DNA from: Roseibacillus persicicus | Lineage (GTDB): Bacteria; Verrucomicrobiota; Verrucomicrobiia; Verrucomicrobiales; Akkermansiaceae | Assembly: GCF_014651675.1 (NCBI RefSeq) | Contig: NZ_BMXI01000004.1 | Location: forward strand, 1-64,000 | Length of the DNA: 64,000 nucleotides | Direction of reading: 5' to 3' | Shown: piece by piece, positions 21,853 to 29,782 of the stretch | How positions within the stretch are numbered: the stretch's first letter is position 1 | Layout of the letters: each line of letters opens with the position of its first letter | Made by a program: the position numbers and the translations under genes | The notes under the pieces: model-generated | The model's input: only the letters and a program-made list of their open reading frames with translations | Database searches by the model: none | Told to the model about the DNA's origin: nothing

Positions 21853-22680
21853 GTGAGTGTTTTCAGCGTTATCAGATCATTTCTTTTGTGCGGAATCTGC
21901 CTTGTCGCGGTTCTAGCGAATGCCAACGGGGCGCATATCGTAAAAAAGGGGGAAACCCTCTACTCGATAGCGACTGCCAACAAGGTTTCGGTTCAGCGCT
22001 TGATGAGTGAAAACGGAATCACAAAGCCAACGAGCTTGCAGATCGGGAGAAGACTCACCATTCCCGGAACCAGCAGCAAGAAAAAGACTGCCAGCATCTC
22101 GCTGAAAACTTCCACCGTCACTCGCTCGTCAAGTAGTGTAACGAAATCGAAAACCGTCATCATCGATCCCGGACATGGAGGTCGGGACAAGGGCGCAGTC
22201 TGGGGTGGGGTGCGCGAGTCGGACTTGAACCTGAAAACCGCTTTCAAGCTGGAGTATTACCTCAAGCGTGCTGGTTACAAGGTGGTGATGACTCGGCGGA
22301 GTGACAGGTATGTGTCGTTGATGAGTCGTGCGGCGATCGCCAATCGCTATCGCAATGCGGTATTTGTTAGCATTCACTATAACGCGACACGTGAAACCTG
22401 GGTTCATGGCGGAGAGACTTTTCACGGCGGTTCGAGCACCAGTCGCTATCTTGCCTCCTCTTTACAGCGCAACTTGGTCAGCCATTGCAAAGTGAGGAAT
22501 CGCGGCGCGCGCTATGCCGGATTCACCGTTCTGCATAATACCAAATGTCCGGCCGCATTGGTTGAGTGTGGATTCATCAGCAATGCCAAGGAACGGGCTC
22601 GTTGCAACACCTCCTCTTTTCAAGACGCGGCTGCTCGTAGCATTCTGGCTGGAATCGAGCGCTGGGACCGGGCTTACTAG
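21853..22680 (+). CDS. LysM-containing N-acetylmuramoyl-L-alanine amidase
   Basis: Cleaves the amide bond between muramic acid and the stem peptide in cell-wall remodelling. A signal peptide (~1-25) is followed by one LysM domain (HIVKKGETLYSIA ... GRRLTIPG, ~27-72), a Ser/Thr/Lys-rich linker, and an Amidase_3 domain (~95-270). The zinc-site motifs are present: IIDPGHGGRDKGA, the ESDLNL glutamate, FVSIHYNA and the catalytic-Glu region ALVECGFISN. The start is GTG at 21853. The stop shares the tetranucleotide CTAG with the convergent gene's stop. Confidence 0.92.
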   Translation: MSVFSVIRSFLLCGICLVAVLANANGAHIVKKGETLYSIATANKVSVQRLMSENGITKPTSLQIGRRLTIPGTSSKKKTASISLKTSTVTRSSSSVTKSKTVIIDPGHGGRDKGAVWGGVRESDLNLKTAFKLEYYLKRAGYKVVMTRRSDRYVSLMSRAAIANRYRNAVFVSIHYNATRETWVHGGETFHGGSSTSRYLASSLQRNLVSHCKVRNRGARYAGFTVLHNTKCPAALVECGFISNAKERARCNTSSFQDAAARSILAGIERWDRAY

Positions 22681-24662
22681 AAGGGCACTTCGCTCCAGAC
22701 AGCGAGGAAGCTCTTGGCCTTCCCGGGGTCATTGATAGCAAGACCTGTTGGCAGCTCGCCTGACAACTCTTTGGTGCGGTGGATTGTGAGTTGTCCCACG
22801 GAATCCGGCGAAAGCTTCCGTCGCAGGTTGTGGGCGATTCTTCCCATAGAACAGCGGGCATTGACTTCGACGATTGGTCTCACCTGTGCGAGCGAGTTCT
22901 CGGATTGGTAAAACAGAGCGTCAACGGCGACTGGTCCGTGGTAGTGAGGGAGGAGAGTAGAGAGGGATCGGGGTAGGAGCCGTTTATAGAAGGCCGGTCC
23001 TGAGTAGTGCTTGCCTCCGGCAGAGATGCAATCCTGATGAAAAAGGATGGTGAGGTCCGAGGGAAAAAGATTCCCGATTTTTGGAGCGACTTGGGTCCCT
23101 CGATAATGTCCCCTGGAATCGGTGATGAGACGGGTGAAAGCCAGAAAGCGGACATCGCCATTTTGTGAGATATCGTAAAGGGCGGAGAAATCGAGGAGGC
23201 GGGGGAGCAGGGGTTCGATTACGAGCGCATCTTGCTCATTGAGAACCTTCTCCAACCACGACTGAGTTCTTTCTTGGGGTGAATTGCGCTCGATGGCCAA
23301 GTGACCTCGGCCTGCACAGCCGAGAGAAGGTTTGAGGAGGAGAGGGCCTGTGACGAGGTTGGTCTCAATAAAAGATTGGGCCTCCCGTAGGCTCGAGAAT
23401 GTGTGGCTTTCATTATTGGATACATCGAGTTGTTCGACGATTCGGGAGGTGAGTTTTTTTGAAAACTGGTCAGTTGGCAGTGGCTCGCGCCAGGGATGAA
23501 GCGTGTTTGAGGTTGGGTTGTCAGCCAAGTTCTCGAAGAGTTTGCTCGAATCCGGAGACCAAGCCCAGGGGCAAAACCCTCCCAGCTTTCGAGTCGCGAG
23601 CTCGTCCTTTTCATGCAAAGGCAGAATCTCAGGGAGCGGAAGGCCCGCGTCCTTGAGAGTCTTGAGATGATGGGGCGAAGGGGGAATCCGCAAGAGAGCC
23701 AGATCATCGGGATGGGCGTTGGCGAGGATGAGGGCTTCCAAATCTTCCTCAAGGTGTCGGCTGGCCTTGTTCCCTTGGAAGGCCGTTCCCATCGCGGAGG
23801 CTGCGGCGTGGGCTTCGCAGTTGGGATTGAAAAAATGGACGAAGGGGGTGCGGCCGCGCGAGCGCTGATAGATCTGCAATTGTTCGATGAAGCTGTCGTC
23901 GAGGCCTGCCTTTTTTCGGCCCTCGCGGTTGAAAGGAATCCCGCCCGGAGCCTTTGCTCGCACGGGTGTCAGGGGATGGGCCAAGGAGCGGTGCCAGGCA
24001 TCCCAGTCCGTCTCCTGTTGCTTCTTGAAGCGCCGAAGCCACTTCAGCCCGTAACCGACATGCGCGATCTCGTCTTTGTAGATCTGCGCGAGAAGCCCGG
24101 AAGTCGTTTCGTCACCGACCCGGGCAAAGGCCTTGGAGTAATGGTTGGCGTAGTCGAGGTTGCTTTGCTCGAAGGTGAGGGACAGCCGCGAGACATACTC
24201 GATGGGCGAGGTCATGGGCGCGATGTGGTCCCAGATCATACGAGAGAGACTGTGCTCGCCAAAGACCGTTCCAGTGGCGGCCATGCGGTCGAGGTAGAGC
24301 CGGGTGTGCTCTTGTTCCTCCTGTAAAGTGTGGAGGAGACCCCGGCGAAAGGCATCGGGCGCGTCGGGAAACTTGAGCAAAGCGAGCGCCATCAGCTCGA
24401 CCGCGATGAGCTCGTGATTGCAGAAAAAGTGAAGCAAGACCGAGCGATGATCCTCGTCACCAAGTTGCTCGGAGGACGGGATTTTGGTCCGCGTCTCGCC
24501 GCTGCGGCGAGGCATCAGAAGCTCGGGTCGTCCCGGCAGGTCGGGGGTCTGGTAGCTGCCCTTGTGGGGCGGATCGAGAGTCATCCCCGCAGGAGGCGGA
24601 GCCAACTTGCCCTCCAGAGTCTTGGCTAGGAGGATGCTCTCGGCGTATTCGCGAACGGTCAT
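22677..24662 (-). CDS. Fusion of ferritin-like DUF455 domain with an ATP-grasp-like domain
   Basis: Function unknown; two domains that usually occur apart. Residues ~1-265 match DUF455, a ferritin-like fold: candidate diiron ligands are HEL/E84-E89, ExxH at ~116-119, E~165 and ExxH at ~198-201 (DEIAH), and the PFNREGRKKAG segment is typical of the family's end. Residues ~285-640 look like an ATP-grasp ligase: PLLLKPSLGCAGRG (nucleotide-binding Lys and Gly loop), LVIEPLLP, and the metal-binding VEVNAR near 597-602. A Cys-rich-free linker with RKLGGFCPWAWSPDS lies between them. ATG at 24662 was chosen over TTG at 24677. It is the last gene of a four-gene minus-strand run, 56 bp after the terpene-cyclase-fold gene. 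Modification of a peptide or small molecule by an oxidase-plus-ligase is inference. Confidence 0.8.
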   Translation of the reverse strand: MTVREYAESILLAKTLEGKLAPPPAGMTLDPPHKGSYQTPDLPGRPELLMPRRSGETRTKIPSSEQLGDEDHRSVLLHFFCNHELIAVELMALALLKFPDAPDAFRRGLLHTLQEEQEHTRLYLDRMAATGTVFGEHSLSRMIWDHIAPMTSPIEYVSRLSLTFEQSNLDYANHYSKAFARVGDETTSGLLAQIYKDEIAHVGYGLKWLRRFKKQQETDWDAWHRSLAHPLTPVRAKAPGGIPFNREGRKKAGLDDSFIEQLQIYQRSRGRTPFVHFFNPNCEAHAAASAMGTAFQGNKASRHLEEDLEALILANAHPDDLALLRIPPSPHHLKTLKDAGLPLPEILPLHEKDELATRKLGGFCPWAWSPDSSKLFENLADNPTSNTLHPWREPLPTDQFSKKLTSRIVEQLDVSNNESHTFSSLREAQSFIETNLVTGPLLLKPSLGCAGRGHLAIERNSPQERTQSWLEKVLNEQDALVIEPLLPRLLDFSALYDISQNGDVRFLAFTRLITDSRGHYRGTQVAPKIGNLFPSDLTILFHQDCISAGGKHYSGPAFYKRLLPRSLSTLLPHYHGPVAVDALFYQSENSLAQVRPIVEVNARCSMGRIAHNLRRKLSPDSVGQLTIHRTKELSGELPTGLAINDPGKAKSFLAVWSEVPF

Positions 24663-24718
24663 GGGTGGTCTGGGCAAGGCGAAGTCGCAAAAACCTCGCT
24701 TGCAACAGCCGCAGCACG

Positions 24719-25876
24719 CTACATCACCGCGTGCAACTGGGCGAGGGAAAGCACGGTGTAAGAGGTCACCAGGACGGGATCATTCTCCCACCAGCGGGAG
24801 TTGGAGTTGATCCAAGATCCGTCCTCGCGCTGATTTGCGAGAAGCTTGCGGGTCAGGTCCAAGCGCCAATCGGCTTCCTTGCCATCTGGCAATTTCAACT
24901 TGTCGACGCCAGCCGCGGAAAGTGCCTTCGCAATGGTCTGATAGTAGTAGTAGAGACCTTGCTCACCAAGGCCTGGATTTTCCGCGAGGGTGTAGTTGCG
25001 ACCCAGCCAGTCCAAGACCGCGACGATGCGTGGGTCGTCTTTTTCGAGATCAGCATAGATGAAAGAGAGAAGGCCGGCGTAGGACATTGAGCCATAGGAG
25101 CGCAGTGCGACCGTTCCGTCTGGTAGCTCTTGCTCGCCTGCCTTGCTGTCTGCGGGAAAGTAGACAAAGCCGCCTTTGTTATCCGGATCATCAGAGGCGA
25201 AAGGCTGGTCGTTGGTTTCGGTGAGGTTTTGGCAGCGGGAGACGAACTGCAAGGCGGCTTCCCAATCCAGCTTGGGCTGCTTGCCGTGCTTGGAGTCCGT
25301 CGCCAGTTGCTTGCTGTGGTAAAGAGCCTCCAGGGAAAGGTAAGTGTTGGACATATCGGAGTGGGGATAGGAGCCCCCGTAGCCGATGCCCCCATCGAAC
25401 TGGTCGTCGGTCTCGCCCTTGTTGCCCCAGTCGGTCTGCTGATTGATGAGGAAAGCACGCGCGCTGAGAATGAGGGGCTCGTCTTCCTCTTTGCCCAGAG
25501 CGAGAAAGGCTATCATTGAAGTCGAGGTGTTATAAGTGGCAAGGCCTTTGCCGTAGATTCCTCCGTCAGGCTTTTTACAGCTGCGCAAAAAGTCGAATCC
25601 TTTGCTCACCCACTCGGGAATCTCTCCGTCGTGGTCGAAGCTTGGGTCGCGGAGCACTGCGGTGAGCGCCAAGGCCGTGACTGCGGGTGTCTTGGGATCT
25701 CCCCAGTGGCCCTCGGGCTGCTGCTGCCCCTTCAGGTAAGCAACGCCAGTCGTGATGGCTCGCTCGGATTCGAGCTTGAGCGAGAGGTAGTGATTGGCGA
25801 CTTCTTTGTTCTCGGTCACCTCTTGGGCGCCGAGAGTTACGGTGGCCGCGATGAGCGGTAGGAGTGCTTTTAACAT
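24719..25876 (-). CDS. Secreted terpene-cyclase-fold (prenyltransferase/squalene oxidase repeat) protein
   Basis: Exported protein with an alpha/alpha toroid fold, function unknown. A signal peptide (LLPLIAATVTLGAQ) precedes QW-like repeats: GVAYLKGQQQPEGHWGD, GFDFLRSCKKPDGGIYG and LANQREDGSWINSNSRWW. The motif GGIGYGGSYPHSDMSNTYLSLEALY is typical of the exported planctomycete/verrucomicrobial branch. The DXDD acid motif of squalene-hopene cyclase is missing, so cyclase activity is unlikely. It lies 27 bp downstream of the YdjY gene and 56 bp upstream of the DUF455/ATP-grasp gene. Confidence 0.85.
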   Translation of the reverse strand: MLKALLPLIAATVTLGAQEVTENKEVANHYLSLKLESERAITTGVAYLKGQQQPEGHWGDPKTPAVTALALTAVLRDPSFDHDGEIPEWVSKGFDFLRSCKKPDGGIYGKGLATYNTSTSMIAFLALGKEEDEPLILSARAFLINQQTDWGNKGETDDQFDGGIGYGGSYPHSDMSNTYLSLEALYHSKQLATDSKHGKQPKLDWEAALQFVSRCQNLTETNDQPFASDDPDNKGGFVYFPADSKAGEQELPDGTVALRSYGSMSYAGLLSFIYADLEKDDPRIVAVLDWLGRNYTLAENPGLGEQGLYYYYQTIAKALSAAGVDKLKLPDGKEADWRLDLTRKLLANQREDGSWINSNSRWWENDPVLVTSYTVLSLAQLHAVM

Positions 25877-25903
25877 GGTTCTAACAGGTGTTCGATTCTG
25901 GGA

Positions 25904-26596
25904 CTATTTTTTCTCTAACAGAGGGGCAAAGGTGACGGTGACAGGAGTGCCCATGGGGGGCAGGATTTTCTGGTTGGGCGTCCAGGGTTCGTCTGTCTCG
26001 TTGTCTTTTCCTGCAAAATTCAGGAGGGACGAGCGGGTGATGTAGATGGCGACGAGGTCTCCGGAGGTCTCGGCTTTGAAGGAGTTTTCGTGAATGTAGG
26101 AACCCTGATAGATCCAGGGAGCGGGTTCCATCGGTCTTTCAGTTGTGGTGTGATAGATGAGGTCGTTGAGGGAATATTCCTTCTTCGCGCCGTCCTGCTC
26201 CCAAGAGACGAGAATTTGCAACCTCGATGCTGTCTTTTGGGCTTCGGGAACATCGGGAAATTGACCAGTGCTTTCAAAGTTCTCATCGAGAATGGGAAAC
26301 AGTTCAGGCGAGCTCTGGTAGCGCAGCAGTTTGAGCGCAATGTTGAGGTGCAAGGCGGATGTCCTGGTCATGAGGAGGGACTCGTGAATTTTCCCTTTCT
26401 CATGAACGATGGCGAACTCCAGCACGCCTTCAATTTGGTTGATCTCAGCAGGGAAAGAAATTCTCCGGCTGTTCTCGTCGAACTCGACCGTGCCGATGGT
26501 ATACTTGCCATCCCCGAGTTCCGTGACCACCGGTTGCGTCGGTTCTTCAGCGGCGGTAGTCAGTAAAAGGGCGAGCAAGACGGCGAAAATTCTCAT
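25904..26596 (-). CDS. YdjY-domain exported protein
   Basis: Exported protein of the YdjY family, role unknown. After a short signal peptide (MRIFAVLLALLLTTAA) the conserved core is visible: IEFAIV-type strand GVLEFAIVHEKGKIHESLLMTRTSALHLNIALKLL in overlapping pieces, with the HESLL...LH..L pattern used to recognise the family. The upstream ATG at 26749 would overlap the preceding gene and put 51 basic, unlikely residues before the signal peptide, so I chose 26596. It is the second gene of the four-gene run. Confidence 0.82.
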   Translation of the reverse strand: MRIFAVLLALLLTTAAEEPTQPVVTELGDGKYTIGTVEFDENSRRISFPAEINQIEGVLEFAIVHEKGKIHESLLMTRTSALHLNIALKLLRYQSSPELFPILDENFESTGQFPDVPEAQKTASRLQILVSWEQDGAKKEYSLNDLIYHTTTERPMEPAPWIYQGSYIHENSFKAETSGDLVAIYITRSSLLNFAGKDNETDEPWTPNQKILPPMGTPVTVTFAPLLEKK

Positions 26597-26648
26597 GTGT
26601 GTATGAGAGTAACGCTGCATTCCCGACCTGTCTTTGGGAAAAATCAGA

Positions 26649-27644
26649 TTATTGAGCCACTTCTTCCTCACCGCTCGCCTCGCCATTCTCAGTTGCGTCG
26701 GAGGATGGCTCTTCTCCGGGCGCGTTCTCGATGGGAGGGCCGGCTTCAAGTGATTGAAAGGGAGTTTCCAAGATCTGTTTCCATGCCAATCGGGTCAGTT
26801 TGTTAACAATGGCATTCTCGGGATCCTCGCCCTTGAGAAGAGGGGGAGGTGGAGTGAGTTTGTCAATCGCCACGATGCGGCGCGAAAGGAGGCGATAGAG
26901 CCCATGGGTCAGCCTGTCATTCAATTCCTCGTCGGATTTGGGTGCGACCGTCACCACTGCGAATGAAGGCTTTTCCGGGTCTTCGCTCGGCATGGTCAAC
27001 CACATCGCTACGGGAAGAGCGGGGAGTGGCTGGGAGGGCTCGGGTGAGGTGATGATTTGAAATTCGGCCTGACAAAGGTTCCCACTGCTAACTCGAATCA
27101 ATTCGCTCAACGTTGCGAGAGCGCCTGACAAGGATTCGGGCGTCCGAGCCGTGCCCAAATGAACTTTGATCTGCGTGGCTGCCGCGGGGTCCGCATTCCA
27201 TAAGGGAAGGGAGGTTTTGAGGGCAACTAGTGCGGCCTCGGCCTCGGATTGGGATGTTCCTCCGGAAGGCGTGGAGTCGAGCACGCGTTCGTAAGCCAGC
27301 ACGGAGCGTTGCAACTGACCTTCGTATTGAAGCCGCTGGGCAAGGTTCAGCAAGGAAGGAGCGCCAAGGTGGGCGTCCTTCATATATTCGTCCAGTCCGG
27401 GTGAAACCATCAGGTCCCCCGGATCAATTTCCGGAATCGAGGGAGTCTCGGTCTCGGGAGGAGATTGGGCCAGTGGAGCCAGCTCATCGGCAATCTCCCG
27501 ATTGACTGGAGAGGCGAAGTCCGGGCGCAGCTCGCTGGCGGGAATCGCCCGCGGGGTCATGAAGTCATACTTTCTGATGCCCCAAAACCAAATGGCCAGA
27601 GGGGTGAGAAGGAGAATGGGAATGGCTGCCTTGTAAGGAATCAT
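26649..27644 (-). CDS. Membrane-anchored hypothetical protein
   Basis: Not recognised. An N-terminal TM segment (~7-22, AIPILLLTPLAIWFWGI) is followed by a Pro-rich linker and one TPR-like helical pair (LGAPSLLNLAQRLQYEGQLQRSVLAYERVL split across ~90-122). A mixed domain of ~150 residues follows, and the C-terminus is acidic (EEPSSDATENGEASGEEEVAQ region). Likely an inner-membrane protein with its bulk in the periplasm. It heads the four-gene run, 52 bp before the YdjY gene. Confidence 0.7.
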   Translation of the reverse strand: MIPYKAAIPILLLTPLAIWFWGIRKYDFMTPRAIPASELRPDFASPVNREIADELAPLAQSPPETETPSIPEIDPGDLMVSPGLDEYMKDAHLGAPSLLNLAQRLQYEGQLQRSVLAYERVLDSTPSGGTSQSEAEAALVALKTSLPLWNADPAAATQIKVHLGTARTPESLSGALATLSELIRVSSGNLCQAEFQIITSPEPSQPLPALPVAMWLTMPSEDPEKPSFAVVTVAPKSDEELNDRLTHGLYRLLSRRIVAIDKLTPPPPLLKGEDPENAIVNKLTRLAWKQILETPFQSLEAGPPIENAPGEEPSSDATENGEASGEEEVAQ

Positions 27645-27988: not shown

Positions 27989-29782
27989 ATGCGTTTGCAA
28001 ACCGTGCGATTTTTTTCCCATCTTACCTGTTTGGCTGCAGCGGCGTTGGCACCGTTCCTTTCAGCTCAACCCAATGTGGTCTTAGTGATTACTGACGACC
28101 AAGGCTACGGCGACCTCTCTTGTCACGGCAACCCCGTCCTCGAGACTCCGCATCTCGACGAACTTCATGGCGAAAGCGTCCGGCTGACCGACTTTCACGT
28201 GAGTCCTACCTGTGCTCCAACCCGGGGCGCGTTGATGAGTGGACACTTTACCAATCGCGCGGGTCCCTGGCACACCATCATGGGCAAGTCCTTTCTTTTT
28301 GAGGGAGAAAAGACCTTGGGCGAGGTCTTCGCCGGTAGTGGCTACGCAACCGGAATGTTTGGCAAATGGCACCTGGGTGACAACTATCCGTTCCGGCCTG
28401 AGGACCGGGGCTTTCACGAGGTTGTTCGCCACGGCGGCGGCGGGGTCGGACAGACTCCCGATTTTTGGGATAATTCTTATTTCGACGACACCTACTTCCA
28501 CAACAGCAAGCCAGAGAAATACGAGGGCTACTGCACGGATGTCTATTTCCAAGAAGCCAAGCGTTTCATTGGTGAGAGCGCCAAGGCAAAGAAGCCCTTT
28601 TTCGCCTATATCTCGACCAACGCTCCCCATGGCCCTTTTCACTGTCCCGAGAAGTATACGGAGCCGTATCTGGAGAAGCTGAAGGACTCCAAGAATAAGG
28701 AGCGAGTGGCGGTCTTCTTCGGGATGATCGCCAATATCGACGAGAACGTCGGGGCCCTGCGGTCATGGCTGGAGGAGGAAGGCCTTGCGGAGGACACTTT
28801 GTTCATCTTCATGACCGACAACGGCACCGCCTCGGGCGCGAATGTTCACAACTCGGGAATGAGGGCCAACAAGGGCTCGATGTATGACGGAGGGCACCGC
28901 GTGCCATTTTTCCTTCATTGGCCCAAGGGTGGCTTGTCGGAAGGTCGTGACATTGAGCAATTGACCGCTCACATCGATGTCCTGCCAACTCTCATCGATC
29001 TCCTGGGACTTCAGGCTTTGCCTGTCGACTACAAGCTGGATGGGCGTTCGCTGGTTCCATTGCTCAAGGACGAGGATGCAGCTTGGCCCGCGCGCACCCT
29101 GGTGACTGATTCCCAGAGAGTTCGTGAGCCTAAGAAATGGAGAAACAGCAGCACCATGACCGAGCGGTGGCGTCTTATTAATGGTAAGGAACTTTACGAT
29201 ATCCAGGCCGATCCCGGTCAAAAGAACAACTTGGCCAAAGATCTTCCCGATGTGGTTGAGCAGTTGCGGGCGGACTATGATATCTGGTGGGACAGTCTGG
29301 CTCCTTCGCTGACCCGACAAGCTCGCATTGTTGTCGGCAGTGATGCCGAGCCAAAGGGGCAGCTGACCTCGCATGATTGGGTGACTGAAAGCAATATGGT
29401 TCCCTGGAATCAGGCCGCGGTAAGGTCTGGTCCTGCCAGCAAGGGGTTCTGGGCGCTTAAAGTGGCAGCAGAAGGAAAGTATCGCGTTACCTTGCGTCGC
29501 TGGCCTCGCGAAACAGGCGCAAAAATCACCGCAAGCCTGGCCCCCGGAGCTCCCGTTCCGGGCCTGGCCGCTTTCCGCGAAACTCCCGGCAAGGCCCTGG
29601 CCATCAATCGGGCGAAGATGAAAATCGGAGAGTTCGAAGCAGAACAAGCGGTCGGCGCTGACGACACCGCCGTTTCTTTCGAAGTCGAGCTCGAGGCGGG
29701 AGATATCGAGTTGGAAGGAGTCTTCACGACCGAAGATGATCAGGAAATCGGCGCCTACTTTGCCGAGGTCGAGAAGCTCTAG
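27989..29782 (+). CDS. Exported sulfatase (Cys-type, S1 family)
   Basis: Hydrolyses sulfate esters, probably from algal or other polysaccharides, in the periplasm or outside. A signal peptide ends near LSAQ. The calcium site begins VLVITDDQGYGD (D36, D37), and the maturation motif is CAPTRGALMSG (C75-x-P-x-R79), where Cys becomes formylglycine. FGKWHLG and the second metal site FMTDNGT complete the core. About 90 extra C-terminal residues after the core form a beta-type module (YRVTLRRWPRE...). No FGE maturase gene is in the window. Convergent with coaD across 13 bp. Confidence 0.94.
   Translation: MRLQTVRFFSHLTCLAAAALAPFLSAQPNVVLVITDDQGYGDLSCHGNPVLETPHLDELHGESVRLTDFHVSPTCAPTRGALMSGHFTNRAGPWHTIMGKSFLFEGEKTLGEVFAGSGYATGMFGKWHLGDNYPFRPEDRGFHEVVRHGGGGVGQTPDFWDNSYFDDTYFHNSKPEKYEGYCTDVYFQEAKRFIGESAKAKKPFFAYISTNAPHGPFHCPEKYTEPYLEKLKDSKNKERVAVFFGMIANIDENVGALRSWLEEEGLAEDTLFIFMTDNGTASGANVHNSGMRANKGSMYDGGHRVPFFLHWPKGGLSEGRDIEQLTAHIDVLPTLIDLLGLQALPVDYKLDGRSLVPLLKDEDAAWPARTLVTDSQRVREPKKWRNSSTMTERWRLINGKELYDIQADPGQKNNLAKDLPDVVEQLRADYDIWWDSLAPSLTRQARIVVGSDAEPKGQLTSHDWVTESNMVPWNQAAVRSGPASKGFWALKVAAEGKYRVTLRRWPRETGAKITASLAPGAPVPGLAAFRETPGKALAINRAKMKIGEFEAEQAVGADDTAVSFEVELEAGDIELEGVFTTEDDQEIGAYFAEVEKL

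Follow-up and report, generated by a model that had tools for sequence, protein, structure and literature searches.

We report that three consecutive genes, here called A, B and C, form a conserved module in a 64,000-nucleotide stretch of the Roseibacillus persicicus genome (contig NZ_BMXI01000004.1, positions 1 to 64,000; this whole stretch is referred to as the window), and that this module is associated with the ebo genes. The unit of interest is A-B-C and the fact of interest is its tie to ebo, an association that is well supported. Since C, together with B, lies within ebo operons elsewhere, A-B-C probably (we estimate a probability of about 0.64) makes up a periplasmic arm, so far unrecognised, of the small-molecule export system ebo, in which C would bind or process the prenylated product. 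Specifically, we hypothesize that the A-B-C proteins touch the ebo product and have an effect on it. The observations behind this are the order of the genes, their linkage to ebo operons in a second phylum, the co-occurrence with ebo, signal-like N-termini, the fold of C and its missing DXDD motif.

The ebo cluster (eboA-F) is known from Nostoc punctiforme and a wide range of bacterial phyla (PMC5133447, PMC6282210), and also from some algal plastids. The published phenotype that we found concerns metabolite translocation and comes from one cyanobacterium only: in Nostoc the cluster is needed to bring a metabolite into the periplasm, and in all tested ebo mutants the scytonemin monomer stays behind in the cytoplasm (PMC6282210). 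The authors of that study proposed a prenylated cyclitol carrier (PMC6282210), and an EboC homologue has been reported to farnesylate quinolines (PMC9235831). With a secreted pair that tracks ebo in two phyla, ligand-binding tests would become feasible on a purifiable periplasmic side of the system, and the tie would suggest roles for the YdjY domain and the secreted cyclase-fold family. In an earlier note on this DNA it was stated that no characterised pathway joins these families; this has to be changed, as B and C have relatives that share operons with ebo, a cluster for which the Nostoc mutant phenotype has been published (PMC6282210).

The module belongs to a run of four genes:

Gene A, 26649..27644, minus strand: 331 aa; membrane-anchored by a transmembrane segment, no family match
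Gene B, 25904..26596, minus strand: 230 aa; exported YdjY-domain protein, alternative start possible at 26620
Gene C, 24719..25876, minus strand: 385 aa; secreted single-domain terpene-cyclase-fold protein
Gene D, 22677..24662, minus strand: 661 aa; fusion of a DUF455 ferritin-like and an ATP-grasp-like part

The positions of the open reading frames confirm the head-to-tail arrangement on the minus strand described earlier, with intergenic gaps of 52 (A/B), 27 (B/C) and 56 bp (C/D) for the listed starts. A scan for promoters and terminators inside the run gave no excess over shuffled sequence. Comparison with other genomes splits the run into the conserved module A-B-C and a neighbour, D.

Association of gene C with the ebo genes

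Scanning 84,980 species genomes with a profile of C identified relatives at 53-60% identity in Geobacteraceae, other Desulfobacterota and Verrucomicrobiota. In the Desulfobacterota C shares a single co-directional run with the ebo genes in 9/9 loci, and B is included in 8/8 assessable loci (L170 was excluded from the B count, its contig beginning inside C). Two layouts were observed, a Geobacter-type B-C-EboD-A-B-E-F-C (L148, L156, L157, L180, L196) and a Desulfobacterales-type Ino1-B-C-TIM-TIM-EboC-A-B-F or close variants of it (L166, L170, L183, L187). EboE is securely identified in the Desulfobacterota loci (NCBIfam NF035939, 426.5 bits, cut-off 250), and a 3-dehydroquinate-synthase-like protein (NF004852, 560 bits), a TatD-like hydrolase and a type I phosphodiesterase are likewise encoded among the ebo genes 3' of B-C; the best NCBIfam model for the UbiA-type prenyltransferase is EboC, with a score under its cut-off.

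In three of the Desulfobacterales-type loci (L166, L183, L187) an inositol-3-phosphate-synthase-like gene replaces EboD and TIM-barrel genes replace EboE, and judged from their gene content it is possible that operons of this type make a variant of the ebo product.

Among 155 sampled Verrucomicrobiota genomes, which should not be taken as independent and were counted without correction for phylogeny, C is present in 62, EboB in 54 and EboF in 61. Both C and ebo (scored as EboB or EboF) were found in 59 genomes, C only in 3, ebo only in 3 and neither in 90, which corresponds to a phi of 0.92. The phi for C and EboF (0.91) is comparable to that for EboB and EboF (0.88), and C thus tracks ebo as tightly as the ebo genes track one another. 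By family, C and ebo are present together in 25, with three C-only and two ebo-only families. Moreover, the same eight Akkermansia-like genomes (genus g2) lack B, C and EboB in the order sample described below; this joint absence may reflect one clade and one event. With respect to position, close linkage is rare in Verrucomicrobiota: C is a convergent neighbour of a full EboF-D-C-E-B-A run in G223, and B-C lies about 6 kb from EboB in G013. Outside Verrucomicrobiales most C relatives in the phylum have no adjoining YdjY gene, though ebo genes are found elsewhere in the genome.

The genome that holds the window (5.28 Mb in 92 contigs, Akkermansiaceae-like family f1) carries EboB-EboE-EboC on contig C9 (L203, 9928-12993) and EboD-EboF on contig C17 (L263, 8543-11070), and its EboF and EboD show 51% and 44% identity, respectively, to the Geobacter-type proteins. 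The likeness to the known system consists of B-C being co-directional with ebo in Desulfobacterota, of C and ebo co-occurring in Verrucomicrobiota, and of EboB, EboC, EboD, EboE and EboF being present in the window genome. The published six-gene cluster differs in having no YdjY or cyclase-fold protein, and while the Ebo proteins are described as soluble enzymes plus an inner-membrane prenyltransferase, those of A-B-C look exported or membrane-anchored. No mention of ebo with a YdjY or cyclase-like partner was found in the open-access literature, subscription papers and preprints being outside the search.

Conservation of A-B-C was studied in 113 Verrucomicrobiales genomes, of which 100 carry C, 99 carry B, 52 carry D and 9 carry A. 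In 93/99 genomes with clear B and C, B lies immediately upstream of C and in the same orientation; relatives of A are confined to family f1 outside the Akkermansia-like genus. The order A-B-C was seen in 7/7 Akkermansiaceae loci of approximately 20 kb outside this genus (L081-L087), and these data bear out the suggestion that the exported genes A-B-C constitute a conserved, uncharacterised unit. In five Akkermansiaceae-type metagenome-assembled genomes (MAGs; L130, L139, L143, L150, L160) C comes immediately after A, and the space between them is too short to hold B. Within Verrucomicrobiales we detected no extra conserved neighbour of A-B-C beyond close relatives. The nearest named relative of C is from an uncultured Roseibacillus MAG (L117; 81% identity).

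Fold of C and features of A and B

The C protein starts with a hydrophobic, signal-like stretch and matches the Pfam family SQHop_cyclase_C (PF13243; 37.9 bits, cut-off 26.1), and PDB profile matches to squalene-hopene cyclase were obtained at an E-value of 1e-13. The AlphaFold2 model of C (pLDDT, the model's own confidence score, 90.2) has as its top Foldseek matches the single-domain class II cyclases 8paj and MstE (6sbg), with E-values of 6e-7 to 1e-5, 12-16% identity and TM-scores of about 0.5-0.56, which indicates a common fold class and not a common function. Pfam, PDB profiles and Foldseek thus all place the alpha-alpha toroid of the cyclase superfamily in C. MstE (6sbb-6sbg) and 8paj/8pak are the best fold matches, and MstE was crystallised with a prenylated dihydroxybenzoate, i.e. 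a prenylated aromatic. Unlike the MstE-type single-domain class II (meroterpenoid) cyclases, C is secreted, its identity to them is at the low level given above, and it is without DXDD. The DXDD motif is not conserved in alignments of C relatives; the position that we equated with it by eye, residues 173-178, reads [STA]-D-x-[SA]-N-[TMS] in 55/55 C sequences, e.g. SDMSNT and SDLSNT. Charged residues that are invariant in C are R140, D161, D174, R259, D281, R283, K317, R338, R361 and E364.

B is a clear member of the YdjY family (NCBIfam NF040466; 134.5 bits, cut-off 50), with invariant E60, E72 and W205 and nearly invariant K69 and H71. Its AlphaFold2 model (pLDDT 90.5) gave no PDB match at E<=0.001 in the fold search. 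For the YdjY domain we found neither a function nor a solved structure, and no useful papers on what it does, so the family name explains nothing yet about B. The A protein has one N-terminal transmembrane segment followed by a possible TPR-like helical stretch and a further domain; it matches nothing in Pfam or NCBIfam, and A may serve the module as a membrane anchor or scaffold. Sequence comparison gave no convincing PDB relatives of A or B, and profile comparison revealed no relation between A and EboA or between B and EboE.

A proposed periplasmic arm for ebo and competing explanations

We propose that the cytoplasmic and membrane Ebo enzymes would make a prenylated small molecule needed for metabolite transfer across the inner membrane, with EboD as a sugar-phosphate-cyclase-like enzyme, EboE as a TIM barrel, EboB as a TatD-like hydrolase, EboF as a phosphodiesterase-like enzyme and EboC as a UbiA-like prenyltransferase. 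Periplasmic C, an isoprenoid-binding toroid lacking the classical acid motif, would take the prenylated product at the outer face of the inner membrane and bind or modify it; B would act alongside C, and in Akkermansiaceae A may tether the B-C pair to the membrane. A more far-reaching version, which we put forward tentatively and regard as rather doubtful, is that C (with B) is a core extracytoplasmic ebo component, overlooked until now, in both Verrucomicrobiota and Desulfobacterota, and that a terpene-cyclase fold has become a carrier or site of processing in the periplasm, to which the prenylated product passes from the inner membrane.

Several observations weigh against a periplasmic arm. 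In the window genome the genes are spread over three contigs, with A-B-C on C4 and the ebo genes on C9 and C17, and show no physical clustering; here EboA was not detected near EboB, the search being confined to the EboB surroundings. In nearly all Verrucomicrobiota loci that were read, no ebo genes adjoin A-B-C or C, and B is missing from the side of C in 39/40 loci sampled from the phylum outside the order (L220-L259). Six genomes break the co-occurrence, three with C only (G116, G209, G226) and three with ebo only (G143, G202, G239). The toroid fold of C is also known from sugar-active enzymes. Finally, ebo in Nostoc, the best-studied case, is described without C, and hence C may not be a general part of the system.

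The fold of C itself bears on the competing explanation that fares best, which we nevertheless consider unlikely: C, either a cyclase of non-canonical type or a toroid active on glycans, would be a secreted enzyme that acts together with B on a lipid or polymer of the envelope, and its tie to ebo would be indirect, e.g. through common envelope polysaccharide or lipid export. The toroid is common to cyclases and sugar-active enzymes, the latter represented among the Foldseek matches by MmpH (7qsj), AprG (9lfi) and GH76 (9r4k), the ten invariant charged residues exceed what we would expect for a passive greasy pocket, and C is not beside ebo in Verrucomicrobiales. Against an envelope enzyme with an indirect tie stand the linkage to ebo operons in two different Desulfobacterota layouts and a co-occurrence of C and ebo as tight as that among the ebo genes.

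Less probable still is a lack of any functional relation between B-C and ebo, in which case the correlation would have arisen through common ancestry and habitat in a few clades together with a chance operon joining in a Desulfobacterota ancestor. This would agree with the lack of phylogeny correction in our counts and with 38/40 phylum-level C loci lying away from ebo (the exceptions being G223 and G128, the latter with C ~8 kb from an EboE). Such a coincidence is difficult to reconcile with two rearranged layouts that both keep B-C with ebo, with concordance in 25 families as against three C-only and two ebo-only, and with the matched absence within genus g2. That all four genes, D included, make up one biosynthetic system, as the earlier note had it, agrees with the close spacing and with A-B-C-D being kept in L117, and is very improbable given that in the other sampled genomes D lies 18 kb to 2.4 Mb from B/C on common contigs and otherwise on another contig, that the D loci read, other than the cut stretch L099, are without A, B and C, that family f4 has B-C and no D, and that phi for D and C is -0.02.

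Gene D and the flanks of the run

Adjacency of D to C is limited to the window genome and L117, a Roseibacillus sp. MAG representing a sister species. In L117 the order A-B-C-D is retained, and C and D are 15 bp apart. The distance between D and C is 84 kb in G089 (same genus), 2.4 Mb in G098, 1.4 Mb in G006 and 18 kb in G012, and in the remaining sampled order genomes that hold both D and B/C, D is on a separate contig. A, B and C were not found in D loci from other genomes (16 of ~20 kb and 29 shorter) apart from L117 and L099, the latter being a 20-kb stretch cut to hold both ends of the 18-kb gap in G012. Family f4 has no representatives with D, and across the phylum the presence of D and C gives the phi of -0.02, a negative control that is weak, as it involves only three genomes. 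The expectation of more than chance grouping and conserved adjacency consequently holds for A-B-C and fails for D. On linkage and presence data we rejected D as a member of the module, contrary to what was suggested earlier; with its adjacency kept only in the window and L117 and no linkage elsewhere, D neighbours A-B-C in no lineage but that of Roseibacillus.

Relatives of D, found in the 52/113 order genomes given above, are mostly full length and have no fixed neighbourhood. D matches DUF455 (PF04305) with 153.7 bits (Pfam cut-off 34.3), and among 29 relatives its N-terminal half has an invariant ferritin-like ligand set (E84, E89, E116, H119, E165, E198, H201) and its C-terminal half an invariant ATP-grasp-like pattern (K402, K444, E483, D581, E599, N601). 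There was no match to Pfam ATP-grasp models, and the matches to the LdmS model (18.9 bits, far under the cut-off of 475) and to the PDB entry 7r8p (E-value 0.0015) were weak. With DUF455 proteins D has the conserved Glu/His set in common, and the residue pattern of its C-terminal part resembles that of ATP-grasp ligases such as LdmS; no characterised relative of the fusion was found. The domain make-up given in the earlier note thus stands for YdjY in B, SQHop_cyclase_C in C and DUF455 in D, all above cut-offs, while the ATP-grasp half of D is only indirectly backed. Judged from these residues D looks like an intact two-domain enzyme that probably joins a ferritin-like domain of the diiron/dimanganese kind to a ligase domain; we found no useful papers on DUF455 function.

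With respect to the flanks, the 3' end of D overlaps by 4 bp (22677-22680) with that of a convergent LysM-amidase gene (21853-22680, plus strand), and a sulfatase gene (PF00884, 197 bits; 27989-29782, plus strand) is divergent from gene A.

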